Shown: positions 10,083-40,044 of the stretch, in pieces
Layout of the letters: each line of letters opens with the position of its first letter
Numbering within the stretch: position 1 is the stretch's first letter
Made by a program: the position numbers and the translations under genes
NCBI RefSeq assembly: GCF_002831645.1
Contig: NZ_CP025117.1
Coordinates: 248,001 to 312,000 of the forward strand
From: Olleya sp. Bg11-27
GTDB taxonomy: Bacteria; Bacteroidota; Bacteroidia; Flavobacteriales; Flavobacteriaceae
Reading direction: 5' to 3'
DNA length: 64,000 bases
The notes under the pieces: model-generated
Databases searched by the model: none
What the model was told of the DNA's origin: nothing
Seen by the model: only the letters and a program-made list of their open reading frames with translations

Positions 10083-10167
10083 CAAAAATACAAGGAAAGG
10101 TATTTTTTAAACTGCATTTTAGTTTAACCTATAGTTAAGTGTCGACGAATGGTCGTTTGCTATAGAC
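10083..10167 (-). promoter_or_regulatory. Promoter with direct-repeat activator site (site 1)
   Basis: Read on the minus strand: TCTATAG (10166-10160), 14 nt, TCGACAC (10145-10139) in the context CCATTCGTCGACACTTAA; then 48 bp; then TATTTTTG (10090-10083), matching the Bacteroidota -7 box TAnnTTTG. The repeat period is 21 bp. It drives the receiver-GT2 operon, with an expected leader of about 25 nt. The site lies in the 272-bp gap shared with the divergent operon starting at 10325 and could serve that too. Confidence 0.75.
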
Positions 10168-10324
10168 AATTAAAAATGCAAGCACTATTATATTTATTTA
10201 TCTTTACCATATTACTATGGCTTAGGCTTTAAAAAAAACAGCTTTATCTAGCATTATCTATTAAATATAAGAGATTATTTTAGATATCACTCCTAACCTT
10301 CAGTAAATTACATAAAAAAAACCA

Positions 10325-13300
10325 TTGAAAGAAACCTCAAATAAATTCTTAATATCAGCGATTCTCTTAGGATTGGCATTTCATGGTAGTGCCATATTTT
10401 TTACTTTGGAAACCACCTATGATGCGTTGATACACTTGTTTTTTGCCGATCATTATGCCAATAGTTGGTTTGAACCTTGGAATTACGAATGGTATACGGG
10501 TTTTACCGTGCAAAGCTACCCACCTTTAGTACATCAGACCATAGGATTATTCTCTCTAATTGGTGGTTTAAAATTCGGAATGTTTAGTGTCGCCTTAATT
10601 GCTATCGTACTATTTATTACTGGAGCCTATCGTTTTTCTTTAATGATGACTGGAAACAAAACGGTTGCAGGGTACGCGACAGCTTTGGCTGTCTTTTCAT
10701 CATCTTTTGTAGAAACCCTTCATATTTTTGGACAACTACCAAGTATTATTGGAGTTTCTGTATTAATGCATGCCTTGCCAGAAATCTATTTATGGTTAAA
10801 AACAGGTAAGCTATGGTACTTAGCGACCTCTTTATCTTTAATAGCCGTCACAGTAACTTCTCATCACGTCACGCCTATTTTCGGGATGATCTTTTTTATA
10901 TTTCCACTTATAGGAATGGTAATTATGGACGTGTCCCGAGAGCAAGTCAGCACCATGAAAGAAGTGACCTTTAAAATATTTTTAAATAGCTTTTTTAAAC
11001 TTTTTAAACGCATTGTTAGTTTTGGAATGTTGTCTTTAGTGCTAATTGTGGGCTGTATTTTCCCCTATTGGTTAAACTCTAAAGCCAACCCAATTACACA
11101 AGTCCCTATTCCGCATGGCTCTCGTGATAATTTTTTAGAAATCACATCTTCTGGATTAGTATTCTTTTTAATTCCTTGGGGCGTTCTATTGGTTGTATTA
11201 CCTTATATTTTTTACAGATATTATAGTAAACGTTATTTGTTTTTTGGTTTATCCATAACCATTTGCACCATTTTAGGAACTGGAGGAACCACACCAGTGC
11301 CTTTAAAAATGCTAGGCGAAACTGCTTTTAATATTTTAACTTTAGATAGGTTTACGCTCTGGGCCTCTATCCTATCCATCCCCATGTTAGGTGAATTTGC
11401 TTATCGTTTTGTGGAAGGCGATTTAAAGGCACTGATACAATCTAAATTTGGAGCCATTTACCATCGTATAATTGGCGGTATATTGGCAGGGTTATTTGTG
11501 TTTATGGTCATTTTTACTATGAGTTTAAACTACTTTAGGCCATCGCAACCACAGAAAATAAAGATGTTACCAATTGTGAATTTCTTAAATCAAGATGATC
11601 ATGACAAATGGCGATTTTTAACTCTAGGTTTTGGTGATCAAATGGCTTGGCTTAGTGCACAAACAGATGCCATGACTGTCGACGGAAACTACCATTCTGC
11701 TAGACGATTACCAGAATTAACGACAAGACCCATCGAGCGTTTAGAGAATTCTAAATTCAAAGGTGTTGCCGGTATTGGCTCGTTACAGCAGTTTTTAACG
11801 ACTCCTGAAAAATATAATCTTAAGTACATATTTTCCAACGACAAATTCTACGATCCCATTCTTTATTTCTGTGGCTGGCAACGCTTACGACAATTAGAAA
11901 ATGGTATTATGGTTTGGGAACGACTCAATATCCCTCCAGTATCGGCTATTTTACCAAAAGAAGATGTTGCCAAGTGGGTTAAAATTATGTGGGGAATCAT
12001 TCCTTTTTTAACCGTTTTAGTCGCTTTTGTATTAAACATACAAATGCTTTGGGTCAACATGCTAAAAACACGCATCAAACCATTACCAGATTTTTTAAAA
12101 TATAAAACAACGTATACTAAATTTCCAAGACCTGTTTTATTCATCACTCATATTTGGTCAATTATATTGGCTATTGTATTATTTTATGGTATTTATTTAT
12201 TCTACCTAAAAAATGATTCGCAACGCAGCCCAGAAAATGCGATCATAGCGTATTATGATGCTTTAGATTTTAAGGAATTTGAAAAAGCGCATAGTTTAAT
12301 CGATCCTGAAAACACCTTACCTATTGCACAATATATGTTAGAGATTTCGGTCACCGACGGGCTACTAAGTAGTTATGCAAAAATGGATGCTATTGAAACC
12401 GAAATCACTAAACACAACGACAGCACTGTCTCTGCGAAAGTGACTAGCCAATGGATTACACCTTTAGAAAAAATTGAAAAAATTGATTATAAATCATTGT
12501 CAAGACGTAAAGGAAAATGGTACTTACAACCTGATGATTTAAATAATGACTTACCACCAGACCAACTGTATTCTGCTAATGCAACACAATACTTTAATCA
12601 AGGTCGTAGACGTATTACAACAGAACAGACACATCATGAAGATATTTTAAAACAACCCGTTTTAGAAGTCATATCAGCAAAACTAGTACACTATGATGGT
12701 AGTTATGCTATTATTGGAGAAGTCCAGAATATAGACAATGTTCCTGCAGATGTTATTTTAAAAGGCACCCTGTATAACGACGACAATAAACAACTAGCAA
12801 CCTACAACGCTAAATACCATGTCAAACATAAACTAATGCCTAAGGAATCTAGTAGCTTCCGCATTAATTTTGAAGGCATTGCTTGGTCTAGAACACAAGA
12901 TTCCATTCCTGACACCTTTAATCCAGATGAATTTACTCCTGTTGAATTTGAAGAACAACCGACAAAATTCAATTTGCAAGTTGCTGGTAATGTCTCTGGT
13001 TCTGATTTATATAAAAGCGTAGTCCTAAGCGATATAAATCTAACTAAAAAAACCATTAATGGGAATTTGTTTAATAGTGGCATCCAAGAAATCACAATAC
13101 CTCAGCTATTAATTACGTATTATGATGAAAACAAAATAATGGTTTGGGTAGATCATTTATTTGTAAAAGAAGGTGTGAGACAGCAACGTAAACAAGATTT
13201 TGAGTACCAGATACTAAAAGACGGTATTGTCAAAATTATTAACGACAGCATGAAAAACATTTTTATAAACGGGTTACCAAATGAAGATATTGCGAGTAAA

Positions 13301-13414
13301 ATAGTACCTAACAGAATTGAAAACCATGGCGATGCGCAATTACAACAAATTGACCACCCTGATTTTAGTTATATTAAAATAGAGATTAACACATACATAG
13401 GAAGCCCAAATTAA
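10325..13414 (+). CDS. Very large polytopic membrane protein of the EPS locus (PTPS-related domain type)
   Basis: The 1029-residue protein has about a dozen hydrophobic helices in residues 1-420, two more near 550-575 and 605-630, and a ~390-residue hydrophilic C-terminal part. The N-terminal region (LETTYDALIHLFFADHYA, then YEWYTGFTVQSYPP) resembles large bacterial membrane proteins annotated with a 6-pyruvoyl-tetrahydropterin-synthase-related domain; GT-C-like sugar transferase or polymerase activity is possible but unproven. The frame begins at a TTG codon (10325), because an in-frame stop lies 10 bp upstream and no ATG precedes the first helix. It overlaps the next gene by 1 bp. Confidence 0.65.
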   Translation: MKETSNKFLISAILLGLAFHGSAIFFTLETTYDALIHLFFADHYANSWFEPWNYEWYTGFTVQSYPPLVHQTIGLFSLIGGLKFGMFSVALIAIVLFITGAYRFSLMMTGNKTVAGYATALAVFSSSFVETLHIFGQLPSIIGVSVLMHALPEIYLWLKTGKLWYLATSLSLIAVTVTSHHVTPIFGMIFFIFPLIGMVIMDVSREQVSTMKEVTFKIFLNSFFKLFKRIVSFGMLSLVLIVGCIFPYWLNSKANPITQVPIPHGSRDNFLEITSSGLVFFLIPWGVLLVVLPYIFYRYYSKRYLFFGLSITICTILGTGGTTPVPLKMLGETAFNILTLDRFTLWASILSIPMLGEFAYRFVEGDLKALIQSKFGAIYHRIIGGILAGLFVFMVIFTMSLNYFRPSQPQKIKMLPIVNFLNQDDHDKWRFLTLGFGDQMAWLSAQTDAMTVDGNYHSARRLPELTTRPIERLENSKFKGVAGIGSLQQFLTTPEKYNLKYIFSNDKFYDPILYFCGWQRLRQLENGIMVWERLNIPPVSAILPKEDVAKWVKIMWGIIPFLTVLVAFVLNIQMLWVNMLKTRIKPLPDFLKYKTTYTKFPRPVLFITHIWSIILAIVLFYGIYLFYLKNDSQRSPENAIIAYYDALDFKEFEKAHSLIDPENTLPIAQYMLEISVTDGLLSSYAKMDAIETEITKHNDSTVSAKVTSQWITPLEKIEKIDYKSLSRRKGKWYLQPDDLNNDLPPDQLYSANATQYFNQGRRRITTEQTHHEDILKQPVLEVISAKLVHYDGSYAIIGEVQNIDNVPADVILKGTLYNDDNKQLATYNAKYHVKHKLMPKESSSFRINFEGIAWSRTQDSIPDTFNPDEFTPVEFEEQPTKFNLQVAGNVSGSDLYKSVVLSDINLTKKTINGNLFNSGIQEITIPQLLITYYDENKIMVWVDHLFVKEGVRQQRKQDFEYQILKDGIVKIINDSMKNIFINGLPNEDIASKIVPNRIENHGDAQLQQIDHPDFSYIKIEINTYIGSPN

Positions 13415-16139: not shown

Positions 16140-16152
16140 TGTATTGGGCTTG

Positions 16153-16398: not shown

Positions 16399-17589
16399 TT
16401 ATTTTTTTGTTTTTTTTTTGATGATCGCATTAAATTGATTCAAATACATATCGGCAATCTTTTCCATTGGGTAGGCAGTTGCTGCTTCATAATTTGCTTG
16501 CCCTAAAACTATTCTGTGTGTATCATTAGTAACTATAGCTTCAATTGCTGTCGCTAAACTCTCAACAGATGTTGGTTCAAAAAATTCACCTTGATACCCT
16601 TCATCTTTCACTAATAAAGCAAGGTCTCCTAAATCGGGCATAACCACTGCTTTTCCATAACTTCCTGCCTGGTGCAATACACCGGAGCTTCCAGTTGTAG
16701 AGGTATATGGAAATACAACTACTGCACTTTCCTGAAACAAGGTTGGCACCTCATACTCTTCTACATAACCCGTAAAACGTACTTGTGGAACATGCTTATA
16801 GTCGTCTTGTACTTTTGCTAAATAACCAGGCACATTTGGATTGTCCGTTCCTGCAATAACAACTTCAAGGTCTAGCCCTGTGGATGCTCTTACTTTCTCA
16901 ACCGCTTCAATCATAGATTCTACTTTTTTATAAGTTCCAAACTTCCCAAAAGTCATCACTTGTAAAGGCCCTTCAGGCAAGCTATATTCTGGTTTTTCTT
17001 CAGAAATTTCAAATGTTCCGTGCGGAATTAAAACCACATTATTTACTTTATATTTTTTTTCTAAAATAGCAACATATTTTTGCATAGTTACCGCAACCGT
17101 ATCTGCTTGTAAAATTAATCGCGTTAAACTAGTCCCTATAAACCCATAGGCTTTTTGCATGATTTTATTAGACGTAAATCCTGCGGATCCTAAATCTACT
17201 TCTTCCAATATATTATGTAATAACACGATATTAGGTATCTTTTTCAACTTACAAACCAACGGTAACATTAACCCTAAAGCTGCCGCAATTTTTTTGTCCC
17301 CAAACTTCATAAATTGTAAGTTGAACAATACAGCATCTGGTTTTGTGCTATTAATCGCTTTAGTCACATTTATAATATTTGTGTAGCTATTAAATGCCCA
17401 ACATTCTTTTACTGTAATTTTACAGCCTTTTTCTGTAAACGCAATATCTTTTGCACCCTCTGTTTTGTCTGTTAGTAACACTATTTCGGTAACATTGTCT
17501 TTTTGTCTAAAATGTTTTACTAAATGATAAGCATACTCATTTAAGGTTACTTTACTTGGAGGATACGCGGTTACGATGGCTAGTTTCAT
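16399..17589 (-). CDS. GT4-family glycosyltransferase
   Basis: The 396-residue protein has a GT-B fold of the GT4 type: N-terminal MKLAIVTAYPPSK, a central VMTFGKFGTYKKVE donor-domain start at about 205, VVIAGTDNPN, and the nucleotide-sugar site GSSGVLHQAGSYGKAVVMPD near 305-325. It is a retaining, NDP-sugar-dependent cytosolic transferase of polysaccharide assembly. It is monocistronic with a long leader, and its promoter carries a direct-repeat site like those of the other EPS operons. Confidence 0.85.
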   Translation of the reverse strand: MKLAIVTAYPPSKVTLNEYAYHLVKHFRQKDNVTEIVLLTDKTEGAKDIAFTEKGCKITVKECWAFNSYTNIINVTKAINSTKPDAVLFNLQFMKFGDKKIAAALGLMLPLVCKLKKIPNIVLLHNILEEVDLGSAGFTSNKIMQKAYGFIGTSLTRLILQADTVAVTMQKYVAILEKKYKVNNVVLIPHGTFEISEEKPEYSLPEGPLQVMTFGKFGTYKKVESMIEAVEKVRASTGLDLEVVIAGTDNPNVPGYLAKVQDDYKHVPQVRFTGYVEEYEVPTLFQESAVVVFPYTSTTGSSGVLHQAGSYGKAVVMPDLGDLALLVKDEGYQGEFFEPTSVESLATAIEAIVTNDTHRIVLGQANYEAATAYPMEKIADMYLNQFNAIIKKKTKK

Positions 17590-17705: not shown

Positions 17706-17790
17706 CAAATTTGCGTTATTAAAGTCATTAATAGTGATGAGTTTAGATAGTTTACCAGTTACTGTAGACGAATGGTAAGAAAGTATAGAT
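17706..17790 (-). promoter_or_regulatory. Promoter with direct-repeat activator site (site 2)
   Basis: Minus strand: TCTATAC (17789-17783), 14 nt, TCTACAG (17768-17762) within CCATTCGTCTACAG, 48 bp, then CAAATTTG (17713-17706), one mismatch from TAnnTTTG. The repeat period is 21 bp and the 48-bp offset equals that of sites 1 and 5. The leader to the GT4 start codon is unusually long, about 110 nt. Confidence 0.7.
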
Positions 17791-17979
17791 TTCCATTTCT
17801 TAAAAACGCTAATCATACTGTTATTCAATATAGTAAACTTTTTTAATCATATATAAACCTTGTACACAAAATCATTTAAGTTAGCAGTCTTTACTATATG
17901 GATTCTTCGCGCCGCTCTGAATGACAAACCAATCAAAAAATCAAATACACTGATATAATCTGAGTCTTCATCAACCAGA

Positions 17980-18045: not shown

Positions 18046-19290
18046 TTATTTTTTGAATTTAGAATCAAACATAAAAAAGAGCACTTGTATTACTAACAAT
18101 AAAACCATTGCTATAATTTGCATATGCACTACTTGTTCTAAACTTTCATGAAAAAAGACAACTAATCCCATTTGAAGCGTTCCAAAAACACCTGAAATAA
18201 CGACAGGAATATATCTGTCCAATGATAAATAATAGTAAGCAAAGATATTAGAGATAGCAAACAAGCCAGTAGCCAGAGCGTATTTCCATAATAAAGGTGC
18301 CATTGCTAAATAACTATCACCAAATAATAGTGTTATGGCTGTTCTAGGAAATAACGCACAGCCAATAACAATTGTCGTTGCGATTGCTGCAATATAACCT
18401 ACGTATTTAAATAATATTGGCGCTGTTGCTTTACCTTCCTTTTTAAGCTGAACCACTGTTGGTAGTAACAACATGACAAACATCCAAGCCACAAAATATA
18501 CTATACGACCAATCAAAGCTAGTGACGCATATAATCCTGCGTCGTAAGAGTCAAAGTAATGTTTAACCAATAAGATATCACTATTGTTAATTATTATCTG
18601 TGTTAGCTCGTAAAATGCCGTTATTACAAAAAAGCTTTTAACTTGTTTGGATTGACTAGCTTCAATTGCAATAGTCTTTTTAAAATTTAAATTTTTGAAT
18701 TTAAAAGGCACTAAACCAAAACCAAAAGAAATTAAAATCCCAACCGCAATAACTACAGAAGATTGCATATCAAATAAAAAGATTAAACCTAAAGTGATTA
18801 CTAATCGGCTTAACATTTCGGCTTGATAAGTAATGGATAATGATTTAAATTCTTTTTTACCCTGAAACACGCCTCTATTCACACTCATTAAAAAATAGAT
18901 TGGCACTCCAATTCCAAATATGGTAAACATTGCAGAAGACGAAGTATTAAATACCGATTGTAACTGTTTGGCAAAAACAATAATTAAAGCACCAAAGCCT
19001 AAACCAACAACCGTTGCGTTTTTATAAATTGTAGCAACAAAATTGGTAAACGTTTCGTTTTCAAAAATCACAGAAAATTTAGCCGTTACTAATTGAAACG
19101 TCATCGCCACAAAAGATAACACCAGCAAAAAAGTAATTAATACTGCGGCATCCGCAAATTGAGCAGGACCTAAAACACGTCCTAAAATAAGATTGTACAA
19201 ATAATTCCCTCCATTGACTGCTAAAACACTTAGCATAAACACTTGTTCCGGAGTTACTTTTTTAGTTTTTAAAAGAGTTAAAATAGACAT
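18046..19290 (-). CDS. Wzx-like polysaccharide flippase (MOP superfamily)
   Basis: The 414-residue protein has about twelve hydrophobic helices spread over its whole length and the early LGPAQFADAAVLITF stretch that resembles oligosaccharide flippases of the MATE/MOP type. Such proteins move lipid-linked oligosaccharide across the inner membrane. It follows the STAS gene by 26 bp and shares its promoter (site 3). No Wzy polymerase is recognisable in the window, so the polymerisation step is unassigned. Confidence 0.8.
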   Translation of the reverse strand: MSILTLLKTKKVTPEQVFMLSVLAVNGGNYLYNLILGRVLGPAQFADAAVLITFLLVLSFVAMTFQLVTAKFSVIFENETFTNFVATIYKNATVVGLGFGALIIVFAKQLQSVFNTSSSAMFTIFGIGVPIYFLMSVNRGVFQGKKEFKSLSITYQAEMLSRLVITLGLIFLFDMQSSVVIAVGILISFGFGLVPFKFKNLNFKKTIAIEASQSKQVKSFFVITAFYELTQIIINNSDILLVKHYFDSYDAGLYASLALIGRIVYFVAWMFVMLLLPTVVQLKKEGKATAPILFKYVGYIAAIATTIVIGCALFPRTAITLLFGDSYLAMAPLLWKYALATGLFAISNIFAYYYLSLDRYIPVVISGVFGTLQMGLVVFFHESLEQVVHMQIIAMVLLLVIQVLFFMFDSKFKK

Positions 19291-19316
19291 CTTATAGGTT
19301 GGTTTGGGGTTACTAA

Positions 19317-19595: not shown

Positions 19596-19634
19596 AAGTG
19601 TTATATTTAAATTATTATTGTCTGATTTCTGACA

Positions 19635-19698: not shown

Positions 19699-19741
19699 GA
19701 ATGAATGGATATGAATGCCTAACTTGCAAGTGAATTAAAAC

Positions 19742-30303: not shown

Positions 30304-32907
30304 CTATTTAACTAGTAACTTTAAGGGATTATAGTGCATTTGTGTACTTGACAATTTACAGATGTATAATCCTGTACTTAAATTTTGTTTTTCTAATGCA
30401 ATCTGATTTTTTCCAGGCTGCGCTGTTACAGTTGTATTATATACCATCTTACCTAATTGGTTATAAATTGTTAACTGTACTGTTTCTGTATTATTTACCG
30501 TAAAATGTAGATTTGCAGTATCAACCATTGGATTTGGATAAATCGCTAGGCTATTTGTATTAGCTTCAAAATTGGTAGTAGACAAGCTACTTTTATTAGA
30601 AAAGCGCACATTTTGCAAATTCATTTCTTTAGTCGTTGTTATACCGTCTTCACTTACAATAGTAAACACAATTGTTACAATATCATTCGCATCGAACTCT
30701 GCTCCTAATGTTGATGCAAAATCTACGAATGGTATCTCAACCTCTTCAAAATCGTCTGTCAAAGCAATAGTTGTCTTGTATTGCTCTTCCCAATTAGTGA
30801 TACTTTGTTTAACTAAAGTAATTTCTAGGTTACCAGTTCCTTTTGCTTGCAAATTAAAACTATCATAAGCTGTTAAATCCACAGCCTTAAAACGTGGTGT
30901 CAGCGCTCTGTAAGTTGCAAAATAAGTACTTGTTGTTGCATTAAGTATTACGTTTCTTTCTACTGGAAAGTCTTGCTCATCAAAGGCAATTGTATTTTCT
31001 GTAACCTCATATGTATTAACTATTGTGCTCCCTTCAGAATCATCTACGCCCCAAGGACCATCAGACATAAATAAATCATCTGGTGTATTTAAACCATCAC
31101 CAATCCTAAACCCTACATCAAATAAATGTCCTGTTTGCACCGTTATATCTGTAATATAATTTTCATCTAAATCCAAGTTAGAAGATGTGTAATCAAAAGC
31201 ACTGGTTTCAGTAACTCTAAATCCAGAATCAAAAGTTACAGCATTAGTTGCATTAGTATTTATAATTTGAAGGTCTAATGCACCATTATTGTACTTCCCT
31301 TTTCTCACAAATACGGTTGGCGGTGTTGACAATTGATAATCAGAAATTGATTTTTCTGCATCTAATAAATTTAGTACTTCTTGAGCTAAACTATACAGAT
31401 CATCCATCGAATCTGACCATATTTGAAAATTATAAAACGTTACGTTTTCTTCATATAAGTCTAAATTCCAATGTGATTCTATTGCGAAATTAGCGTCATT
31501 ATTTTTCACCTTGGCTGCTAAGCTTATTACATATTCAAAACTACCATCAGCATTTTTTATAATTGATTTAATAAATGCTTGGTCATTAATATCCATAGTT
31601 GATACTGAAATTAACTCTGCACCTAATAATCTATCGCAAATATATTTAGTGTGCTCATACACTCCATTTTCAGTTTTCAAAGCTAACACTGATGCTATTG
31701 AAGCGCCATTCTGCATGTAATCTACAGAGTAAACCTCTGTTGCATTTGTAATATTTAATAAATCTAATGGTGTTGAGTCGATTGCATAATCCTCATTAAT
31801 AGTTGTTAGCGGTACAAAATCTTGCAATTGAAAACTATTGCTTGTTGTCCTGTATGCTGTATTACCTGTATCTCTTGAGACACGCTTTGCTGTTTTCTGA
31901 TTAAACTTATAACTATTTTTAGCACGATTAAAATTACGTTTGTTAATCGCTTCCGATAATCTTCCATTACTTTCTAATCCACCATCATTAGCGGTTGTAG
32001 GCGCTGCAATAACGGCACAACTTCCAAAACCAGAACAAGAAGGGTCTTCACAATCAATTAAACCATCGCCGTCATCATCAATTCCATTATCACAAATTTC
32101 TTGTAACACAGGAGCTGTTGGACAACGCGCACCATCATTACTAGCACTTGAAGGTCCAAATGCAAATAAATTGGAGTCCATAGATGAGGTTGCGGTTACA
32201 TCTTGTACATTTTGAATCGCATAAATAGTTCCTGTTTGGTTTGCTGACACATAAAAACGTCCGTCTGCATCAAAATAAACAGCACCATAAGTATAATTTA
32301 ATCCTGATAAAATTGGCACTTCACCCAGTGACTGAACCACACTGGTTATTGGGTCAATACGGTATAAAATATTCGAATTTTTTTCTACTGCATATAAATT
32401 TCCATCTACTGCATTAAAAGCCCAATCATGGATGCTAATATTTTGAGAGAGGTTTTCTGTAGACAAATACTGTGTGTATGTTGGTGAGTCTGGATCTAAA
32501 TCAACTTTAAAGTAGCTTGTTCCACCAGCTTTAAAATAATAAATTCCCTCTGGACTAATATCTCCAACATATTTATTCCCTGATGATAATTCTGGAATAG
32601 TAAATGAAGTCGTTTGAAAATCGTCCCCTATTCTTACAATTGTTTGAGAAGGCGAACTTAAATAGCCCCAAATATAACCATCAGCAGCATTATAAGCTGT
32701 TGCATTTATATTCCCTGGAGTAACATCACTTGCTACTAAATAAGAATTACCAGACGCCAAATCGATCGCATACACATCATTGTACTGAAATAAGTACGCA
32801 TTAACATCACAGTTAAATGGCGTGTCTTGTGCTTGATTTGAAAAACTAAAAAGCAATACCGTAAGTAAGGCTATTCGATTTTTTAAATAATGTAGTTTTG
32901 TTGTCAT
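30304..32907 (-). CDS. Large secreted protein with propeller-like N-terminus and T9SS sorting tail
   Basis: The 867-residue protein has a signal peptide (ending SNQAQ, ~27). Residues ~30-265 look like a DUF6923-type beta-propeller (LYAVEKNSNILYRIDP, YGAVYFDADGRFYVS). A calcium-type DNGIDDDGDGLIDCEDP motif follows at ~275. A long beta-rich middle contains a carbohydrate-binding-like module (~640-770). The tail (IYPNPMVDTANLHF to the end) is a type A sorting domain. It is exported to the surface through T9SS. Its promoter carries the direct-repeat site, so it is a candidate member of the LytTR regulon. Confidence 0.78.
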   Translation of the reverse strand: MTTKLHYLKNRIALLTVLLFSFSNQAQDTPFNCDVNAYLFQYNDVYAIDLASGNSYLVASDVTPGNINATAYNAADGYIWGYLSSPSQTIVRIGDDFQTTSFTIPELSSGNKYVGDISPEGIYYFKAGGTSYFKVDLDPDSPTYTQYLSTENLSQNISIHDWAFNAVDGNLYAVEKNSNILYRIDPITSVVQSLGEVPILSGLNYTYGAVYFDADGRFYVSANQTGTIYAIQNVQDVTATSSMDSNLFAFGPSSASNDGARCPTAPVLQEICDNGIDDDGDGLIDCEDPSCSGFGSCAVIAAPTTANDGGLESNGRLSEAINKRNFNRAKNSYKFNQKTAKRVSRDTGNTAYRTTSNSFQLQDFVPLTTINEDYAIDSTPLDLLNITNATEVYSVDYMQNGASIASVLALKTENGVYEHTKYICDRLLGAELISVSTMDINDQAFIKSIIKNADGSFEYVISLAAKVKNNDANFAIESHWNLDLYEENVTFYNFQIWSDSMDDLYSLAQEVLNLLDAEKSISDYQLSTPPTVFVRKGKYNNGALDLQIINTNATNAVTFDSGFRVTETSAFDYTSSNLDLDENYITDITVQTGHLFDVGFRIGDGLNTPDDLFMSDGPWGVDDSEGSTIVNTYEVTENTIAFDEQDFPVERNVILNATTSTYFATYRALTPRFKAVDLTAYDSFNLQAKGTGNLEITLVKQSITNWEEQYKTTIALTDDFEEVEIPFVDFASTLGAEFDANDIVTIVFTIVSEDGITTTKEMNLQNVRFSNKSSLSTTNFEANTNSLAIYPNPMVDTANLHFTVNNTETVQLTIYNQLGKMVYNTTVTAQPGKNQIALEKQNLSTGLYICKLSSTQMHYNPLKLLVK

Positions 32908-32931
32908 GGGATGGGGGTTTTAATTACAAGA

Positions 32932-33015
32932 CAAATTTACTTTAGAAATGAGTCTTAAATTGAATTTTTCGATTAGCAAAATTTAAGTATCGACGAATGG
33001 CAATAAAGTGTAGAT
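32932..33015 (-). promoter_or_regulatory. Promoter with direct-repeat activator site (site 4)
   Basis: Minus strand: TCTACAC (33014-33008), 14 nt, TCGATAC (32993-32987) within CCATTCGTCGATACTTAA, 47 bp, then TAAATTTG (32939-32932), an exact TAnnTTTG box. The repeat period is 21 bp. It drives the large T9SS protein gene. Confidence 0.78.
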
Positions 33016-33031
33016 TAGCTGATTTTCAACA

Positions 33032-33529
33032 CTATAACTTCACAAATATATTAGTAAAATAATGACGTCCTTCAGCATCTTTTTTAGTTGAAATCCCAAA
33101 ATCAGTAACATTTGGATTTTCTATATTTTCTCTATGCCCATCACTATTCAACCACGCGTTAACTAAAGCTTGCGCACTACTAAAACCATATCCTACATTC
33201 TCTGAAACGGTTATTGCATTAACCACATCTTTTAAATTTTGAGATCTTACATAAAAATAATCATGACTTGCTGCACCTTGATTAACCATATAGTGGTTAT
33301 GCGCAATAGCCTCCTTGGAAGCTTCATTTAAAATAGTTAACACCCTTAAATCTTTAGAAATTCTGTGGGCATTAATCAGCTCCAATATCTCATAGTCTAG
33401 CTCAGTATATTCTACATTTACAACGCTTGCTTTATATTCATTCGGAAGCTCTATTTCATCCTCTTGAACTGAACAAGACATTAAAAATGCACTTAATAAG
33501 ACTGTTGTGATAATAGCTAATTTTTTCAT
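33032..33529 (-). CDS. CAP-domain (SCP/PR1-like) lipoprotein
   Basis: The 165-residue protein has a lipobox (FLMSC, Cys at ~19) and a CAP domain: LINAHRISKDL, HNHYMVNQGAASHDYF, SENVGYG, ALVNAWLNSDGHRENIENP and the closing YFTNIFVKL. The His/Glu cavity residues of the family are present. A TTG-started extension to 33553 overlaps the predicted -7 box, so ATG at 33529 is used. The promoter carries site 5. Function of bacterial CAP lipoproteins is poorly known; a surface role is likely. Confidence 0.83.
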   Translation of the reverse strand: MKKLAIITTVLLSAFLMSCSVQEDEIELPNEYKASVVNVEYTELDYEILELINAHRISKDLRVLTILNEASKEAIAHNHYMVNQGAASHDYFYVRSQNLKDVVNAITVSENVGYGFSSAQALVNAWLNSDGHRENIENPNVTDFGISTKKDAEGRHYFTNIFVKL

Positions 33530-33550
33530 CGTGATTGGTTTATTTGATGA

Positions 33551-33635
33551 CAAAACTAGCTTGAAAGGCCGCCTGAGTTACGAATATTCGATTAACTCAA
33601 TTTTAAGTGTCGACGAATAGCTAAATCGTTTAGTT
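33551..33635 (-). promoter_or_regulatory. Promoter with direct-repeat activator site (site 5)
   Basis: Minus strand: ACTAAAC (33634-33628), 14 nt, TCGACAC (33613-33607) within CTATTCGTCGACACTTAA, 48 bp, then TAGTTTTG (33558-33551), an exact TAnnTTTG box. The leader is about 20 nt. Sites 4 and 5 also share TAATCGAA about 12-14 bp after the second repeat. Confidence 0.76.
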
Positions 33636-33762
33636 AAACGGTTTTATATGTTTTTAATCGGTTTTTTCAGTAACATACAAGCACATAAAGAAGCATTTAC
33701 ACAGCTAAAAGATCTCATAAAACGTCTTTCAACAAACACATAAACTATTAAGAAAAGAGACT

Positions 33763-34485
33763 TTAAAGCAAGTTCAATCGTTTCATAAGCTCTGGCCTAT
33801 TAGAACGACTTACAGGGATAACGTCCTTTTTAATTAGCACACTATTATCTTCAATATCAATAATTTTTTTAATATTAATAATATAAGACCGGTGTACTTT
33901 TAAGAATAAACTATCGGGTAATTTTTCTTCTATTTTCTTTAAAGTCGAATGGACTGTATAGTTTTTATCTTCAGTTTTAACCTGAATATAATCCCCCTTG
34001 GCTTCCACTAAATAAATACTAGGAATATCTATTTTAATTAAACGTCTATCGATATTAACATATAAGTCATTACCAGATGATGTTTCCACTTTTTCAGACT
34101 CTGAAACAGGTATCGCAGGCGTTGCGGGCACATCATGCATGGCTTCAGCCTTATCAATTCCTTTTTGAAAGCGTTCTTGTGTGATTGGCTTCACCAAATA
34201 ATCTACAATACAATCGTATTCAAATGCCTGAATGGCAAATTTGGGATCTGACGTTGTTAATACTATTTTTGGTGGATTTTTAAGTGTTTCTATAAAATCA
34301 AAACCAGTAAAATCTGGCATATGTATATCTAAAAAAATCAAATCGACTTCGTTCTGATTTAAATACTTTATGGCTTGCATAGCGTTTGGAAACGCCTCTA
34401 AAACATTAAGACTTGGCACATTTGAACATAACTGTGTTATAATCATTCTTGCTGTGGCTTCGTCGTCAATGATAATGCAATTCAT
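33763..34485 (-). CDS. LytTR-family response regulator, output of the split phosphorelay
   Basis: The 240-residue protein has a receiver domain (acidic pair D7-D8, phosphoacceptor D53 in IFLDIHMPDFTG, LVKPI lysine) and a C-terminal LytTR DNA-binding domain from ~140 (IDIPSIYLVEAKGDYIQVKT, HSTLKKIEEKLP, FLKVHRSYIINIKKI). LytTR domains bind two short direct repeats about 21-22 bp apart, which is exactly the layout of the six sites found here. It is the last gene of the H-NOX/FIST operon, 10 bp after the Hpt gene. Confidence 0.92.
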   Translation of the reverse strand: MNCIIIDDEATARMIITQLCSNVPSLNVLEAFPNAMQAIKYLNQNEVDLIFLDIHMPDFTGFDFIETLKNPPKIVLTTSDPKFAIQAFEYDCIVDYLVKPITQERFQKGIDKAEAMHDVPATPAIPVSESEKVETSSGNDLYVNIDRRLIKIDIPSIYLVEAKGDYIQVKTEDKNYTVHSTLKKIEEKLPDSLFLKVHRSYIINIKKIIDIEDNSVLIKKDVIPVSRSNRPELMKRLNLL

Positions 34486-34495
34486 AAATTTTTAT

Positions 34496-34813
34496 TTAGA
34501 TATCTTCAAGGTATTTGGTTATAGTATCTAATATAGCTTCAAATTGTTCTTTCTCGTCGGTTTTTCCGTCTTCTAAACTTATTTCGTAAGCCACTGCAAC
34601 CTCATAACTTTTCTCAAGGCCTAAAATACTAATTTTATGCTTAAGTTTATGCACATTATCTGCTGCTAACTTATAATTTTCAGCATTAAAGTTATCAAAA
34701 TACACTTGTCTCTCTTCAGGAAACTCTTTTTTGATGATATCTATTAGTTTTTGCTTAAAGGCTTCATCTCCTCCAGACAAATTATTAATGTAAGATTGAT
34801 TAGGCTGTTCCAT
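34496..34813 (-). CDS. Hpt-domain phosphotransfer protein
   Basis: The 105-residue all-helical protein has the Hpt signature AADNVHKLKHKISILGL, with H55 at the phospho-accepting position (family motif AHxLKG). It overlaps the end of the upstream kinase gene by 14 bp and precedes the LytTR gene by 10 bp. Because neither kinase in the operon has its own receiver, this protein most likely passes phosphate from the single-domain receiver to LytTR. Confidence 0.88.
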   Translation of the reverse strand: MEQPNQSYINNLSGGDEAFKQKLIDIIKKEFPEERQVYFDNFNAENYKLAADNVHKLKHKISILGLEKSYEVAVAYEISLEDGKTDEKEQFEAILDTITKYLEDI

Positions 34814-35864
34814 TCGGGGCTTTTTTTAGGGTGAAATAAAATGTAGTTCCAATATTAACTTGAGATTCAAGCCATATCTTACCACCATATAACTCAACAA
34901 TTTTCTTTACAATAGATAATCCAATCCCAGAAGACTCGGGGTTATTTTCTAATTTTAAAAAGGTTTTAAAAATTTTATCAAAGTAGGTTTCTTCAATACC
35001 TTTTCCATTATCTTGTATAAAAAATTGCCAATAATCATGTTTGTCTTCTACTCCAACATTAATAATACCATGCTCCTTATCATTATACTTTATAGCATTA
35101 CCAATTAGGTTTTGAAACAATTGTTGCAATCGATATTTATCCCCTTTTATTATGGGTAATTTGGTTTTTGTAAAGTTAATATGCTGTGGAATATGAATAC
35201 TATTTAATATATCGTCAATAAGTTTATCTACATCAACATCGTAAATCTCTATTTCGTTTTTGCCAATCGTTGAATATTCTAAAATACCAGTAATTAGGGT
35301 ATCCATTTTTTCAACATTAGTTCTAATAAGATGCAAAGTAGATTTTCCATTAGCATCCAACACATCCTTATAGTCATCGGATAACCAAGCTGTTAATGCA
35401 TCTATGCTTCGCAATGGCGATTTCAAATCATGAGACACCATATGTGCATAATCACTAAGTTCTTGATTTTGATGCGCCAACTCGTTTAACATAGACTGTT
35501 TTTGCTTATTCACCTCGATAATCTCTTTAGTTTGATTATCAATAAAATCAACTAAATTAGAACCGGTCAATTCAATATTTTCAGACGTTTTGTCCTCCTT
35601 TAAGTCATAAAACTTAAGTGTGTTAATAACGCTTTTTAGCTTATCAATGACCTCTTTCTGTTCATCAGCTTCTTGTTGCAATTTTCTATTAGCACTATAT
35701 AATTCGTCAGAACTAATAGCCATAGCCCTTTGAATCATTACTGATTGTTCGTCAAAATTATTATAAGACAAATCCACAGCATTGATAAATGTCTTCAAAT
35801 CCGTATTATTCTTGAGTTCTTCACTTAAAAATTTACGTATTTGTCTTTTTAATAATGAGTTCAT
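34800..35864 (-). CDS. Histidine kinase partnered with the FIST protein
   Basis: The 354-residue cytosolic kinase has an N-terminal helical/coiled-coil region (about 1-130, including SSDELYSANRKLQQ, typical of FIST-associated kinases) and no PAS domain. HisKA follows with YAHMVSHDLKSPLRS (~140-155), then HATPase with LIGNAIKYND, DNGKGIEE and SGIGLSIVKKIVE. It has no sensor domain of its own, so it probably receives its signal from the FIST protein, whose stop codon overlaps its ATG by 1 bp. Confidence 0.9.
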   Translation of the reverse strand: MNSLLKRQIRKFLSEELKNNTDLKTFINAVDLSYNNFDEQSVMIQRAMAISSDELYSANRKLQQEADEQKEVIDKLKSVINTLKFYDLKEDKTSENIELTGSNLVDFIDNQTKEIIEVNKQKQSMLNELAHQNQELSDYAHMVSHDLKSPLRSIDALTAWLSDDYKDVLDANGKSTLHLIRTNVEKMDTLITGILEYSTIGKNEIEIYDVDVDKLIDDILNSIHIPQHINFTKTKLPIIKGDKYRLQQLFQNLIGNAIKYNDKEHGIINVGVEDKHDYWQFFIQDNGKGIEETYFDKIFKTFLKLENNPESSGIGLSIVKKIVELYGGKIWLESQVNIGTTFYFTLKKAPNGTA

Positions 35865-36997
35865 TATTCGCTAATTAGCGTTATAGTCATCGTCTGATTA
35901 TGTAATTGGCAAGCCATTTCGCCATGAAAAGGTGCAATTTCGCCATAAGAATAAAACCCAGTGATTACTGTATCACTACCCAACACATCAATAACTTCTT
36001 CGACCTCTTCTTCCACACGTTGGTCTAACACTAGTTTTCTACCAATACAACTAACTAGTATCGCTAACTCCGGCTTGTTCTTCCTATAACCTAACGCTTG
36101 TTTTGCTGCACGTTCTGATGCATTTGCGATATTATCTACATTGGTCATCATTAGCTGTACTTTAGAGTTTTCTTTAATATCTCCAGCTAAAACAACAGCA
36201 TTCTCTTCTTCATTAATATTTAAAATAGACCTAACAATAGATTGTTTTTCATCTGTAGATGTTACGTTTAATGGATATAACAAAGCTGCTCCAGGTAAAT
36301 CTTTAGCCTTATCTCCTAAGTATTTTTTATACAAATCTAAGGCTGGTTGCCCATCTAACTCATATAAAATATTGTCTTTCGACTTTGTAACGATGCGTTT
36401 TGGACCAAAAGGTGTCCATCCCCCATGAATTGAAAATGAAATCTCCAAGGTATCTCCATAAAAGCCAATCGCTACCAACTCGCCTTCTTTCGGATTCTCA
36501 TTGTAAGACGCTAATGTTTTTTCAAAACGTGCATCATCACCACATAACCCACCAGTAATTACTAAATTATCATCCGTAGAAGCACTCATTCCTTTTGTTA
36601 GCTGACTTCCGTTAACAAAACTACCTTCTGAGACTACAAACACATATTTTAAATCTTCTTGGGGCAATTGCTCAATAAGATCTTTTCCTGTTTTAAAACT
36701 ATCTAAATCAGAATTTAAAACATTACTAGTTTTAATTACAAACTTACTTTTTTCAAACTCGATAGCAGTAATAGTAATACTATCTTGATTTACTGTATTT
36801 GATGAAATCTCTGCACATGAAGACGCAAAAACAATATGTCCATCAGGAAAAAGTTGTCTAATCTCTTCGTAAACCAAACTATCCTCCAACATATACCGAT
36901 TACCAAAAACTAAAACCAAAGGTGCTTTTAAGTCTTGCTTTTCAATAACATATTCCCACTCTTCATCCTTATGCTTGACTAACTGTACTGTTTTCAT
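35864..36997 (-). CDS. FIST N/C-domain sensor protein (NosP-like candidate)
   Basis: The 377-residue soluble protein has FIST_N (residues ~25-215: VFASSCAEI, ITGGLCGDDARFEKT) and FIST_C (~220-375: SIHGGWTPFGPKRIVTKS, LDGQPALDLYKKYLG, and the closing GFYSYGEIAPF). FIST proteins are signal-binding partners of kinases, and one branch (NosP) binds haem and NO. Whether this copy binds haem cannot be told from sequence alone. Gene spacing is 2 bp to the PAS kinase upstream and a 1-bp overlap with the kinase downstream. Confidence 0.88.
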   Translation of the reverse strand: MKTVQLVKHKDEEWEYVIEKQDLKAPLVLVFGNRYMLEDSLVYEEIRQLFPDGHIVFASSCAEISSNTVNQDSITITAIEFEKSKFVIKTSNVLNSDLDSFKTGKDLIEQLPQEDLKYVFVVSEGSFVNGSQLTKGMSASTDDNLVITGGLCGDDARFEKTLASYNENPKEGELVAIGFYGDTLEISFSIHGGWTPFGPKRIVTKSKDNILYELDGQPALDLYKKYLGDKAKDLPGAALLYPLNVTSTDEKQSIVRSILNINEEENAVVLAGDIKENSKVQLMMTNVDNIANASERAAKQALGYRKNKPELAILVSCIGRKLVLDQRVEEEVEEVIDVLGSDTVITGFYSYGEIAPFHGEMACQLHNQTMTITLISE

Positions 36998-36999
36998 TG

Positions 37000-38958
37000 C
37001 TATTTTTTTAATGTGAAATAAAAAGTAGTTCCTACATTTGGCTCACTATCTAACCAGATTTCACCTTCATGTAAATTGACGATTTTTTTGACAATAGACA
37101 ATCCAATTCCTGAGGAATCCTTACTCTTCTTTAACGAATGGAATATCTTAAATATTTTATCATGGTACTTTTTATCAATACCAATACCATTATCTTTTAT
37201 TGAAAATTTGTAATGACTTTTTAAATCTTCGACATCAATGACAATACTACCATTTTCTTTATCTATAAACTTAACCGAATTGCTAATTAGGTTCTGAAAC
37301 ACCTGCTGTAGCTTGGTCTTATCTCCTATTATATTAGGCAAAACATTAAGACTCTTAATCTCTATATGATCTGGAATATACAATATGCTAACCAGCTCGC
37401 TAACCATACTATTTAAATCCACATTGACCTTAACAGAGTTATCTGCTCCAACACTAGAGTAATTTAACACGTCCGTAATTAACTGTTCCATCTTCTCTAA
37501 AGTGGTTTCAATAAGTCCAAAATTTTGAAGACTAACAGCATCCAACTTTCCTTTATTATCTTCTTTCAACCAGCTAACTAGTGCGTCTATACTTCGTAAA
37601 GGCGACTTTAGGTCATGAGACACGATATGTGCATACTCCTGAAGCTCGTCATTACTTTTCGCTAATTTACTTAATAATTTTTCCTTCTGAATTTCTAGAT
37701 TTTTAGTCTCTGTCACATCTAAATGAATCCCAATAGATCCAATGACTTCTCCATCTATATTATAATTTGGCGCACCACTAACTAACCAATGTCTTGTTTT
37801 TCCTTTCTTACATATAGCCTTAAACTCATAAGAGTTTGACTCTCCTTTGTTACGTTTTTTTCGTTCTTCCTTTAGTATTTCAGAATCCTCTTCAGCAGCA
37901 AAAAGCGCTCGTGCATTTTTACCTTTCACTTCTGCTTCTGTATAACCAGACATTTTTTCAAAACTATGATTTACCATTAGGATTTCGTCGTTGTTATTCA
38001 ACTCCACCATTCCTAAATTCATATTTGCAATAATGTTGTAATACTTCTGCTTCTGTGCCTCCAAACTTTTTCTATAAGTACGTTTTAAAGTAACATCTGT
38101 AAAGGTCCACAGGTAACCTTTATATTGGTCACCCGCAACTATTGGCATGTAACTACGTTCTAAAATTTTACCGTCGACCATTTCTAATTCGTCACCAATA
38201 ACCGTTTTTTTATCAACATCTATAGAACGCATCCTTTGTATAAAACCATCAGGATCTTTAAACAGCACCTTATTGTGTTCTGATGCTGCAACGCAATCCA
38301 TCCCGATTAAATCTTTAGGGTTTGCCTTTATGTCAAAAAGTTCACAAAATTTATTATTAGTAAGTACTATATTACGGTTTTCGTCTTCCAAAACAATTCC
38401 GTTATCTAAATTTAAAATTAATGTTGCCAATCGGTTTTCAGACTCGATAAGCTTTTCTGCAGATTTTTTTTGATCAGTAATATCCCTAACAATACCTTGA
38501 GCTGCCACAGGCTTTTTATTAGAATCAAAAATAACACTTGCATTGATATGCACCCATTTTACCTCTTTTGATTTGGTATAAACACGTGCTTCATAATCTT
38601 TAAAGAAACCTTTAGTTTGCAACTCTAAAAAAGAAGATATCGCGTATTGATAATCTTCTTTATATATAAGGTTTACAACGTTTATTTTATCTCTAGCAAT
38701 ATCATAACCAAATAACTTAATCGCTGCTTCGTTAAATTTTATAACATTACCCTGCAAATCCATAACCACGTAGGCATCTAGAATATTTTCAAAAACCCCC
38801 TCTAATTGTGATGATTTTTCATCTAACAACTGCTCAAGTCTTTGAGACGTTAAGTAAAGCTCTCTTGATTTTTCCTCAAGAATTTTTTCTGCTGCTTTTC
38901 TTGCTGCCTTTTCACGCTTTAAAGCACGTTGTAGTATTTCTGTTTGGTCTTGACTCAT
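37000..38958 (-). CDS. Triple-PAS histidine kinase partnered with H-NOX
   Basis: The 652-residue cytosolic kinase starts with a coiled coil (~1-50, ALKREKAARKAAEKIL, a segment I associate with H-NOX-linked kinases). Three PAS modules follow (about 52-165, 175-290, 305-420), then HisKA with YAHIVSHDLKSPLRS (~440-455) and HATPase with LISNSVKFID, DNGIGID and SGIGLSIVKKIV. It has no receiver domain, so it must hand phosphate to a separate receiver. Its start overlaps the H-NOX stop by 1 bp, the usual arrangement for a sensor and its kinase. Confidence 0.92.
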   Translation of the reverse strand: MSQDQTEILQRALKREKAARKAAEKILEEKSRELYLTSQRLEQLLDEKSSQLEGVFENILDAYVVMDLQGNVIKFNEAAIKLFGYDIARDKINVVNLIYKEDYQYAISSFLELQTKGFFKDYEARVYTKSKEVKWVHINASVIFDSNKKPVAAQGIVRDITDQKKSAEKLIESENRLATLILNLDNGIVLEDENRNIVLTNNKFCELFDIKANPKDLIGMDCVAASEHNKVLFKDPDGFIQRMRSIDVDKKTVIGDELEMVDGKILERSYMPIVAGDQYKGYLWTFTDVTLKRTYRKSLEAQKQKYYNIIANMNLGMVELNNNDEILMVNHSFEKMSGYTEAEVKGKNARALFAAEEDSEILKEERKKRNKGESNSYEFKAICKKGKTRHWLVSGAPNYNIDGEVIGSIGIHLDVTETKNLEIQKEKLLSKLAKSNDELQEYAHIVSHDLKSPLRSIDALVSWLKEDNKGKLDAVSLQNFGLIETTLEKMEQLITDVLNYSSVGADNSVKVNVDLNSMVSELVSILYIPDHIEIKSLNVLPNIIGDKTKLQQVFQNLISNSVKFIDKENGSIVIDVEDLKSHYKFSIKDNGIGIDKKYHDKIFKIFHSLKKSKDSSGIGLSIVKKIVNLHEGEIWLDSEPNVGTTFYFTLKK

Positions 38959-39497
38959 TAATTTTTATGAATAACAAATCTAACTTCCGTTCCGTCCTCC
39001 TTAATTTTTTGTAAATCTATTGTTGCGGTTGAATTAAAATGCTCGAATGTTTTGTTCATCAACCCTAAACCAAAATGATGCATTGCTCTACTTGAGGTAT
39101 AAATCATTATTAAAGAGTTTTCCGTTTTCTCAACAACTTCAAAAGTTGGCAATTCTGCATCTGGATAAATTTTCCTAACTTCTACATGAATATGATTTTC
39201 TATAGATGAAATCATTTCAATAGGATCTTTATAAGTTGCTAAAAGCCCAGGATAACTTTTTTCAATAACACTAAAAAAGTGTTCAGCATAAACTAGTAAA
39301 AGGTTGTCTATTGATATGCCTGTGTTTTCACTTAAATGACTCAATAATTGAAGCATTTCAGAAAAACTATATGTTCCTACAGCAGTATAAACACCTTCAG
39401 ACTCTAACGTAGAGCTTGTTATGATGTTATCCACCATTTCTAGACCAAATTTATCCTCTACTAACTCTAAAAATTCTGTAAAAACAATTCCTTTCAT
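38958..39497 (-). CDS. H-NOX haem-nitric-oxide-binding sensor protein
   Basis: The 179-residue protein matches a stand-alone H-NOX domain: start MKGIVFTEFLELVEDKFG, proximal haem ligand H104 in NHIHVEVRKIYPDAELPTF, and the haem-propionate triad Y133-x-S135-x-R137 (YTSSR). At the position of the distal tyrosine that stabilises O2 in thermophile H-NOX there is F142, so an NO-selective, O2-excluding pocket is predicted. Stand-alone H-NOX proteins normally inhibit a partner kinase when NO is bound; the partner here is the next gene. Confidence 0.92.
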   Translation of the reverse strand: MKGIVFTEFLELVEDKFGLEMVDNIITSSTLESEGVYTAVGTYSFSEMLQLLSHLSENTGISIDNLLLVYAEHFFSVIEKSYPGLLATYKDPIEMISSIENHIHVEVRKIYPDAELPTFEVVEKTENSLIMIYTSSRAMHHFGLGLMNKTFEHFNSTATIDLQKIKEDGTEVRFVIHKN

Positions 39498-39499
39498 TT

Positions 39500-39913
39500 T
39501 TAAACTACAATTAATTCATTAATACTCCAATATGCTAATAATTTTTCAATTTTACTAACATAATCTTCATATTTTAATGGTTTTATAACATATCCTGCAA
39601 CACCGATTTTGTAACATTCCAATAAATCTTTTTGATTGTTAGACGTTGTTAATATGATGGTAGGAATGTACTTTAGGACAGGATCTTTTTTTAGAATACC
39701 TAAAAATTCAATACCGTTAATTTTTGGCATATTTAAATCTAGCAAAATTATATCTGGTAAATTATCTTTATTTTCTAAAAGCTCTAATGCTTCCTCTCCG
39801 TTATTGGCTTCAATAATATGGTGATTTAATTGTAAAGCTGAAGTTGTTCTGTTCAACTTCATTTTTTCAATCATATCATCTTCAATTAGAAGAATTTTAA
39901 GTGTTTTTGACAT
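39500..39913 (-). CDS. Single-domain response regulator leading the H-NOX operon
   Basis: The 137-residue Rcp1/CheY-like receiver has acidic residues E11-D12-D13, phosphoacceptor D59 in ILLDLNMPKING, TTSN in the switch region and the VIKPLK lysine. There is no output domain. It is the first gene of the operon, 2 bp before H-NOX. In a split relay it is the natural intermediate between the kinases and the Hpt protein. Confidence 0.9.
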   Translation of the reverse strand: MSKTLKILLIEDDMIEKMKLNRTTSALQLNHHIIEANNGEEALELLENKDNLPDIILLDLNMPKINGIEFLGILKKDPVLKYIPTIILTTSNNQKDLLECYKIGVAGYVIKPLKYEDYVSKIEKLLAYWSINELIVV

Positions 39914-39940
39914 TGTGAGGGTGTATTATTTTCTATTAAA

Positions 39941-40044
39941 CAAAACTATCACAAATTACACTCACAAAAATTTAATTTCGTTTATACTGGTTTTAGTAAT
40001 GCTGAATAACGTTTAAGTGTCGACGAATGGAAATTGAGTATTTT
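39941..40044 (-). promoter_or_regulatory. Promoter with direct-repeat activator site (site 6), autoregulatory
   Basis: Minus strand: a weak first repeat AAAATAC (40044-40038), 14 nt, TCGACAC (40023-40017) within CCATTCGTCGACACTTAA (identical to site 1), 68 bp, then TAGTTTTG (39948-39941), an exact TAnnTTTG box. The offset is 20 bp longer than at sites 1, 2 and 5. A closer degenerate box (TAATTTG, about 58 bp away) is also possible. It stands before the operon encoding the LytTR regulator, so the operon probably controls itself. Confidence 0.68.

Follow-up and report, generated by a model that had tools for sequence, protein, structure and literature searches.

The window analysed here is a 64,000-nucleotide stretch of the genome of Olleya sp. 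Bg11-27, a member of the Flavobacteriaceae (contig NZ_CP025117.1, positions 248,001 to 312,000 of the forward strand; all coordinates below count from the first letter of the window). It encodes a signalling operon that ends in a gene for a LytTR response regulator, a set of genes for glycosyltransferases, a flippase and secreted proteins, and six promoter elements built of 21-bp direct repeats. Together, these features represent a real, conserved, promoter-phased regulon of the LytTR type that comes with the gene set of a heme-sensor phosphorelay. The original prediction, made from the window alone, had pointed to the six elements and to the LytTR protein; it did not include the promoter-registered array of three slots, the operon of H-NOX, FIST and Hpt-like proteins, the polysaccharide theme or the family-wide conservation. 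The signalling genes form a same-strand run that is headed by one of the six elements and has the LytTR gene as its last member:

39500..39913, minus strand: RR1, a stand-alone receiver domain (Pfam)
38958..39497, minus strand: H-NOX heme sensor (HNOB, expectation value (E) 1.2e-38; close to the Kordia algicida H-NOX 6BDD)
37000..38958, minus strand: HK1, a PAS histidine kinase (Pfam)
35864..36997, minus strand: FIST (NosP-like) protein (Pfam)
34800..35864, minus strand: HK2, a histidine kinase (Pfam)
34496..34813, minus strand: Hpt-like phosphotransfer protein of 105 amino acids (aa) (invariant His55, predicted fold)
33763..34485, minus strand: LytTR response regulator, the proposed binder of the six operators (PF00072 and PF04397, both above cut-off)

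A Pfam scan of 40 window proteins shows no transcription-factor domain other than LytTR, and the genome encodes 12 LytTR domains in all; the best NCBIfam models for the protein, BtsR and LytR, lie far below cut-off. Both operon kinases match HisKA/HATPase. The Hpt-like protein has a histidine, His55 (column 54 of the alignment, which omits the Met), that is invariant in 17 of 17 aligned sequences, and its AlphaFold model (mean predicted local distance difference test, pLDDT, 91.9) has HPt domains as its best matches in the PDB (probability 1.00, TM-score 0.77, E 0.095). The gene set of a putative His-Asp-His-Asp phosphorelay is present: kinases, a stand-alone receiver, an Hpt-like protein and an output receiver. 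The hallmarks of H-NOX domains are a proximal His and a YxSxR motif. The window H-NOX aligns with 6BDD over 179 of 179 residues (E 4.6e-95), with the His and YTSSR stretches kept. The protein in 6BDD comes from Kordia algicida (PMC7356049), and FIST proteins include NosP, a second sensor of nitric oxide (NO) (PMC8738867). The closest H-NOX structures, 6BDD and 6BDE, bear aldolase as the molecule name in the PDB copy, apparently a mislabel. A further pair, a PAS histidine kinase and a stand-alone receiver, is encoded within the cluster on the opposite strand (28231-30136, plus strand) and is not preceded by any of the six operators.

The genes downstream of the other five elements, all on the minus strand, are the following:

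8889..10052, minus strand: REC-GT2, a response-regulator receiver fused to a family 2 glycosyltransferase (Pfam)
8343-8840, minus strand: GT2 fragment, downstream of REC-GT2
7331-8332, minus strand: phosphomannose isomerase-like gene, downstream of REC-GT2
16399..17589, minus strand: GT1, a glycosyltransferase of group 1 (Pfam)
18046..19637, minus strand: STAS-flippase target genes (STAS listed from TTG at 19637, likely ATG at about 19595)
18046-19290, minus strand: polysaccharide flippase (Pfam)
30304..32907, minus strand: DUF6923 protein with a sorting domain of the type IX secretion system (T9SS) (Pfam)
33032..33553, minus strand: CAP-superfamily protein (listed from TTG at 33553, likely ATG at about 33529)

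All six predicted elements, starting at 10139, 17762, 19670, 32987, 33607 and 40017, are in place on the minus strand, and the repeat distance of 21 bp from start to start is correct. With up to 3 mismatches, the predicted pattern matches the window 14 times, compared with a mean of 4.46 and a maximum of 10 in 100 shuffles. The predicted half-site TCGACAC lies inside the true repeat unit but is too short; the 14-mer CCATTCGTCGACAC, the best copy of the 21-bp direct-repeat unit and its most constant part, carries most of the information. Measured by their ends, the units occupy three slots, 26-27, 47-48 and 68-69 bp before a -7 box of the form TAnnTTTG, denoted below slots 26, 47 and 68. Promoter by promoter, with matches to the 14-mer given for the weaker units, the operators and boxes are:

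10118..10173, minus strand: REC-GT2 operator, TTAATTGTCTATAG in slot 68 and CCATTCGTCGACAC in slot 47 (10139-10152); slot 26 degenerate, 2/14
10083..10090, minus strand: REC-GT2 -7 box TATTTTTG, 48 bp past the core
17741..17796, minus strand: GT1 operator, ATGGAAATCTATAC (slot 68), CCATTCGTCTACAG (slot 47) and TAAACTATCTAAAC (slot 26)
17706..17713, minus strand: GT1 -7-like box CAAATTTG, one mismatch, offset 48
19670..19704, minus strand: STAS-flippase operator, TCATTCATCTACAC (slot 47) and CCACTCGTCGAAAT (slot 26)
19635..19642, minus strand: STAS-flippase -7-like box CATCTTTG, one mismatch, offset 27 (48 - 21)
32966..33021, minus strand: DUF6923/T9SS operator, CAGCTAATCTACAC (slot 68), CCATTCGTCGATAC (slot 47) and TTGCTAATCGAAAA (slot 26, 6/14)
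32932..32939, minus strand: DUF6923/T9SS -7 box TAAATTTG, offset 47
33586..33641, minus strand: CAP operator, CCGTTTAACTAAAC (slot 68) and CTATTCGTCGACAC (slot 47); slot 26 degenerate, 3/14
33551..33558, minus strand: CAP -7 box TAGTTTTG, offset 48
39975..40030, minus strand: signalling-operon operator (predicted autoregulation), CCATTCGTCGACAC (slot 68), TTATTCAGCATTAC (slot 47) and AGTATAAACGAAAT (slot 26, 5/14)
39941..39948, minus strand: signalling-operon -7 box TAGTTTTG, offset 68 (47 + 21)

Four of the six boxes are exact, and those of sites 17762 and 19670 deviate by one mismatch each. The offsets predicted for four sites hold (48 at 10139, 48 at 17762, 47 at 32987 and 48 at 33607). The two sites for which no offset had been given, 19670 and 40017, are in register as well, displaced by 21 bp, so that all six promoters share one register modulo 21. 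At 40017, the element was correctly located, but its supposed first half, AAAATAC, is rejected as a unit because the surrounding 14-mer scores at background (4/14); the likelier second unit is TTATTCAGCATTAC (7/14), 21 bp downstream. The strong unit is not in the same slot at every gene: it occupies slot 68 in the signalling operon, slot 47 in most outputs, and slots 47 and 26 at STAS. With the -7 box taken as positions -12 to -5 (PMC9723704), the unit centres fall near -46, -67 and -88.

Across the 4.31-Mb genome, the 14-mer CCATTCGTCGACAC occurs with 0-1 mismatch at four places, all inside the window. At 2 mismatches, it occurs at six places, namely site 17762 and five outside the window; these five are located within or beside open frames, and none is accompanied by an in-register -7-like box. 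At up to 2 mismatches, the genome-wide count is 10, compared with 7 for the reversed control, and site 19670, with 3 mismatches, is missed; the scan is therefore specific only at 0-1 mismatch, and weak sites elsewhere are possible. The strong sites of this genome are thus local. The outside-window places, which lack in-register boxes, do not support a regulon that spans the whole genome of this strain, with the proviso that weaker sites would escape.

Across relatives, the element follows the gene cluster. We searched 199 genomes of the family, that of the window included, and placed the limit for orthologues of the LytTR protein at a score gap (242 bits, the next match at 206), counting one copy per genome. 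Orthologues are present in 83 of the 199 genomes, and some match to the protein at E 1e-30 in 172. In a class-wide draw of 295 genomes, an orthologue at E 1e-65 appears in 4, that of the window included, all from the same family. One genome (G131, locus L091, C1:1376298-1378238) has two adjacent orthologues, 72% and 69% identical to that of the window, a tandem duplication; the second copy is left out of the counts.

Around the orthologue, 80 named loci (1.59 Mb) were kept of 563 found, some of them cut by contig ends; they belong to marine Flavobacteriaceae, among them Winogradskyella, Lacinutrix, Algibacter, Psychroserpens, Olleya, Kordia algicida and Aquimarina. The surrounding gene set is syntenic: the Hpt-like and LytTR genes are found together in all 80, RR1 in 78, H-NOX in 76, HK1 in 67, HK2 in 65, DUF6923 in 64, a TPR gene in 57, FIST in 52 and the flippase in 44. 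When at most 1 mismatch is allowed, the core CCATTCGTCKACAC is found 163 times on the strand of the LytTR gene, in 75 of the 80 loci, compared with none on the opposite strand and none for the reversed pattern. These matches form 152 operators, whose closest neighbour homologous to a window gene, within 700 bp, is RR1 (71, five of them at 549-570 bp), DUF6923 (34), GT1 (20), CAP (11), STAS (5) or none (11).

Across the 199 genomes, the same core gives 123 matches, 100 in genomes with an orthologue and 23 in genomes without one; core-positive genomes are 55 of the 83 with, and 20 of the 116 without (Fisher p 2e-12). All 78 matches that lie within 35 kb of a LytTR orthologue (45 genomes; 4 of the matches in the window) are on its strand, and 22 of the 100 lie farther than 35 kb. 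The reversed control, with counts entered by hand before summing, gives 40 matches in genomes without the orthologue and 35 in genomes with it; given 23 matches compared with 40, the motif is at background outside the locus. One of the orthologue-less matches (L076) has an RR1 gene, 72% identical, downstream and a box out of register, so the cluster is present there on a contig end. A LytTR-type regulon, as originally proposed, is the best explanation, and the 21-bp direct repeats, a unit word like that of AlgR and a protein in the window that joins a receiver to a LytTR domain fit it; the suggested link to this particular protein gains comparative support from the strand agreement (78 of 78) and from the background level without the orthologue, and binding by it is predicted on that ground.

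The register holds beyond the window. The sample for this analysis comprised 60 loci from 52 genera, one genome per genus, taken from 52 of the 83 orthologue genomes; loci were picked mostly from the best match downwards, some lower ones being preferred for known core hits, so that the sample favours positive loci. With up to 2 mismatches, the core gives 150 matches on the gene strand, 7 on the opposite strand and 5 in the control, and yields 136 operators in 49 of the 52 genera. A -7-like box (at most 1 mismatch) lies at 26/27, 47/48 or 68/69 for 106 of the 136; when the test is slid by 2-19 bp, this falls to 2-14, and slides of 1 and 20 bp, which overlap with the true offsets, give 78 and 37. 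Among exact boxes, 52 of 62 are in register, and in the 80 named loci, 58 of 66 exact downstream boxes are. By nearest gene, the in-register fractions are 11/11 for REC-GT2, 7/7 for the flippase, 20/22 for GT1, 20/21 for DUF6923, 5/6 for STAS, 2/2 for CAP, 0/1 for Hpt and 13/19 for other genes. The genes behind these promoters come from different families, so a shared layout inherited from a single ancestral promoter is unlikely.

The number of slots is bounded. When the operators are aligned by their -7 box, the mean number of matches to the 14-mer has its highest values at offsets 47 (12.1), 68 (7.5) and 26 (6.7), with 5.2 at 55 as the next best and a baseline of 3.7, but these means include the cores used for anchoring, and the figures to use are the counts of neighbour units (at least 8 of 14 matches, the core's own slot left out). 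In the 47/48 class, which holds the best unit of 84 of the 106 anchored operators, a neighbour unit is found 21 bp upstream in 18/84 and 21 bp downstream in 34/84, compared with 0/84 at 42 bp on either side. In the 68/69 class, units are found 21 bp downstream in 14/20, 42 bp downstream in 2/20 and 21 bp upstream in 0/20; the 26/27 class, with just 2 members, has little weight. At other shifts, the unit frequency is 0.6-0.9%. The empty positions one slot further out imply that the units fill three slots and stop there. Doubled cores are 21 bp apart in 11 of 11 cases in the 80-locus set and in 14 of 14 in the 60-locus set, and the sequence between units is poorly conserved.

We examined 20 of the 22 matches farther than 35 kb from the LytTR gene and 20 of the 23 matches in orthologue-less genomes: in register are 6 and 3, respectively, and 11 and 15 lie under open frames of at least 100 codons. 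In one single-contig genome (G100), an in-register site and the LytTR gene are separated by 2.28 Mb along the contig (or by 1.76 Mb in the other direction, should the contig be circular); the site lies upstream of a gene for a DUF4114 protein that shares 34% identity with the DUF6923 target over 220 columns. In another (G118, single contig), such a site lies at a distance of 1.19 Mb and precedes a frame of 144 aa that has no Pfam match, and in a third (G147), one precedes an 83%-identical REC-GT2 gene on another contig. Such unlinked in-register sites favour a trans-acting regulator. Genome G008 has a similar core, CCATTCGTCGAAAC, in register at 27 (locus L235, C53:49314-49327) before a gene for a LytS-type His_kinase, a site that may belong to a sister LytTR system reading a word of its own. 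Pfam comparison of five genes next to far or orthologue-less matches gave one DUF4114, one His_kinase and three without a match. A mostly local regulon with some unlinked sites in relatives appears to be the best reading of these data.

The target genes point to surface polysaccharide and secreted proteins as the probable output. The REC-GT2 fusion suggests direct control of sugar transfer by phosphorylation. In one relative, a UDP-sugar dehydrogenase gene lies downstream of a site that has no exact -7 box; it is one of nine unassigned downstream genes compared with Pfam, two others being phosphoribosyltransferase-like and six without a match. The polysaccharide region of the window also contains three adjacent genes on the opposite strand (10325-16139, plus strand), for proteins of 1029, 405 and 504 aa; the 1029-aa protein has no Pfam match, and the 504-aa protein matches a GH2 C-terminal domain. 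NCBIfam was uninformative for the 1029-aa, 405-aa and flippase proteins.

We consider it probable that the six elements are operators of one autoregulated LytTR regulon, activated via the phosphorelay of its own operon, with a polysaccharide and secreted output. Under this scenario, H-NOX and FIST would sense NO or, possibly, another heme ligand, and tune a relay whose members would be the two kinases, the stand-alone receiver, the Hpt-like protein and the receiver of the LytTR protein, in a presumed order of phosphotransfer. The phosphorylated LytTR protein (33763-34485) would fill up to three 21-bp units on one face of the DNA and, most likely, recruit sigma-A RNA polymerase, that is, activate; we infer activation because the register is fixed. 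The genes switched on would serve a surface polysaccharide (flippase, GT1, REC-GT2) and secreted proteins (CAP and DUF6923 with its T9SS tail), and the regulator would also turn on its own signalling operon through 39975..40030.

Several observations weigh against parts of this scenario. In the window, slot 26 is degenerate (2-7 of 14) in five of the six promoters, and in the 60-locus sample, RR1 promoters fit the register worse, at 28 of 47. A core with 0-1 mismatch lies within 35 kb in only 45 of the 83 orthologue genomes; in the others, sites may have drifted or contigs may be broken. Co-occurrence links the motif with the cluster as a whole and does not single out one protein, and a YjbR protein encoded beside the operon belongs to a family that is sometimes called DNA-binding. 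Within the relay, the Hpt-like protein has no Pfam match and its Foldseek E-values are all at least 0.095; FIST, present in just 52 of 80 loci, is not essential; and NO as the ligand of the window H-NOX is presumed from the general properties of the family. A TTTG at -33 is present in 6/84, 1/21 and 0/3 operators, compared with 38/601 in a loose background; because the background is equally low, its absence is no argument for activation.

The main rival on the sign of regulation, which we regard as unlikely, is that the same LytTR regulator represses, its proximal unit hindering the polymerase and phosphorylation altering the effect. Slot 26 does lie near the -33 region, the sign cannot be read from sequence, and a missing -33 TTTG is no commoner than background; yet the best unit is mostly the one in slot 47, upstream of the -33 region (84/106). 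It also counts against repression that a register kept over unrelated genes is a trait of activators more than of repressors, and that most of the LytTR regulators characterised so far activate. Within the family, repression has a precedent in AlgR, which lowers rhlA expression in biofilms (PMC4064291).

The main rival on identity is that another DNA-binding protein, for example one of the 11 other LytTR proteins of this genome, binds the elements and that the LytTR protein of the cluster is a bystander. The 12 LytTR domains of the genome make this conceivable, and the G008 core before a LytS-type kinase gene would fit related regulators reading related words. However, the motif is at background in the 116 orthologue-less genomes, 89 of which have another relative of the protein at E 1e-30, and no repeat pair lies within about 1.5 kb on either side of the other 11 LytTR genes, the sole match among LytTR neighbourhoods (L013) being the window's own locus; we therefore consider this quite improbable. 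An origin of the repeats as a mobile repeat, or a role as an RNA element, as several similar copies in one region might suggest, is rejected with near certainty: Rfam at the gathering threshold reports one tRNA only, the units lie upstream of the -7 box and so outside the transcript, orientation follows the gene strand in 163 of 163 cases, the promoter register is kept and the sequence between units is poorly conserved.

A broader version of the activation scenario can be offered only tentatively: a Flavobacteriaceae-wide heme/NO phosphorelay acting through a three-slot array on sigma-A promoters, in which slot occupancy would set the order and strength of response promoter by promoter. The flavobacterial H-NOX proteins, one of them with a crystal structure, gain a probable pathway and output; the three-slot layout provides a defined operator that can be searched for in Bacteroidetes; and it opens the way to direct tests of how activation is arranged in space at their unusual -7/-33 promoters. 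If the scenario is true, gas sensing would be linked to the surface coat of marine bacteria. No description of this regulon was found in the open-licence literature, among the matches listed.

Among known systems, those closest on the sensing side are in Vibrio, where the output regulators are not known to be of the LytTR type. In Vibrio fischeri (H-NOX-SypF, syp) and Vibrio parahaemolyticus (H-NOX/HqsK-LuxU), as in the scenario proposed here, H-NOX acts on a kinase and on an Hpt step through which polysaccharide, biofilm or quorum-sensing genes are controlled (PMC8738867). The same H-NOX review counts FIST among the neighbours of group-1 H-NOX genes, and its main text holds no match for LytTR, Bacteroidet- or Kordia. 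The Kordia algicida H-NOX 6BDD resembles that of the window over its full length and comes from a locus (L206) with the complete set of RR1, H-NOX, HK1, FIST, HK2, Hpt-like and LytTR genes; it differs in having been studied as an isolated gas-binding protein, with no pathway named in the excerpts of PMC7356049.

On the DNA-binding side, AlgR of Pseudomonas aeruginosa, whose partner kinase AlgZ is of the His_kinase type, unlike the HisKA/HATPase kinases of the operon, is likened here by box word and domain type. The unit word CCATTCGTC shares 8 of its 9 bases with the AlgR box CCGTTCGTC; like the window protein, AlgR is a LytTR response regulator, and exopolysaccharide (alginate) genes are among its targets (PMC4064291). 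It differs in that its sites are not necessarily the direct repeats about 12 bp apart that are the rule for LytTR proteins, two far-upstream sites of algD lying at -470 and -394 (PMC4064291), whereas the window system has three slots fixed to a Bacteroidetes sigma-A promoter and an H-NOX/FIST/Hpt set in its operon. The operators of ComE also have the direct-repeat LytTR layout. Those of AgrA, VirR and PlnC/D consist of two imperfect direct repeats about 12 bp apart, or about 21 bp from start to start (PMC4064291), the same spacing as in the window. AgrA, VirR, PlnC/D and ComE are described with two repeats, whereas here there are up to three slots, and the slot of the strongest copy varies from gene to gene.

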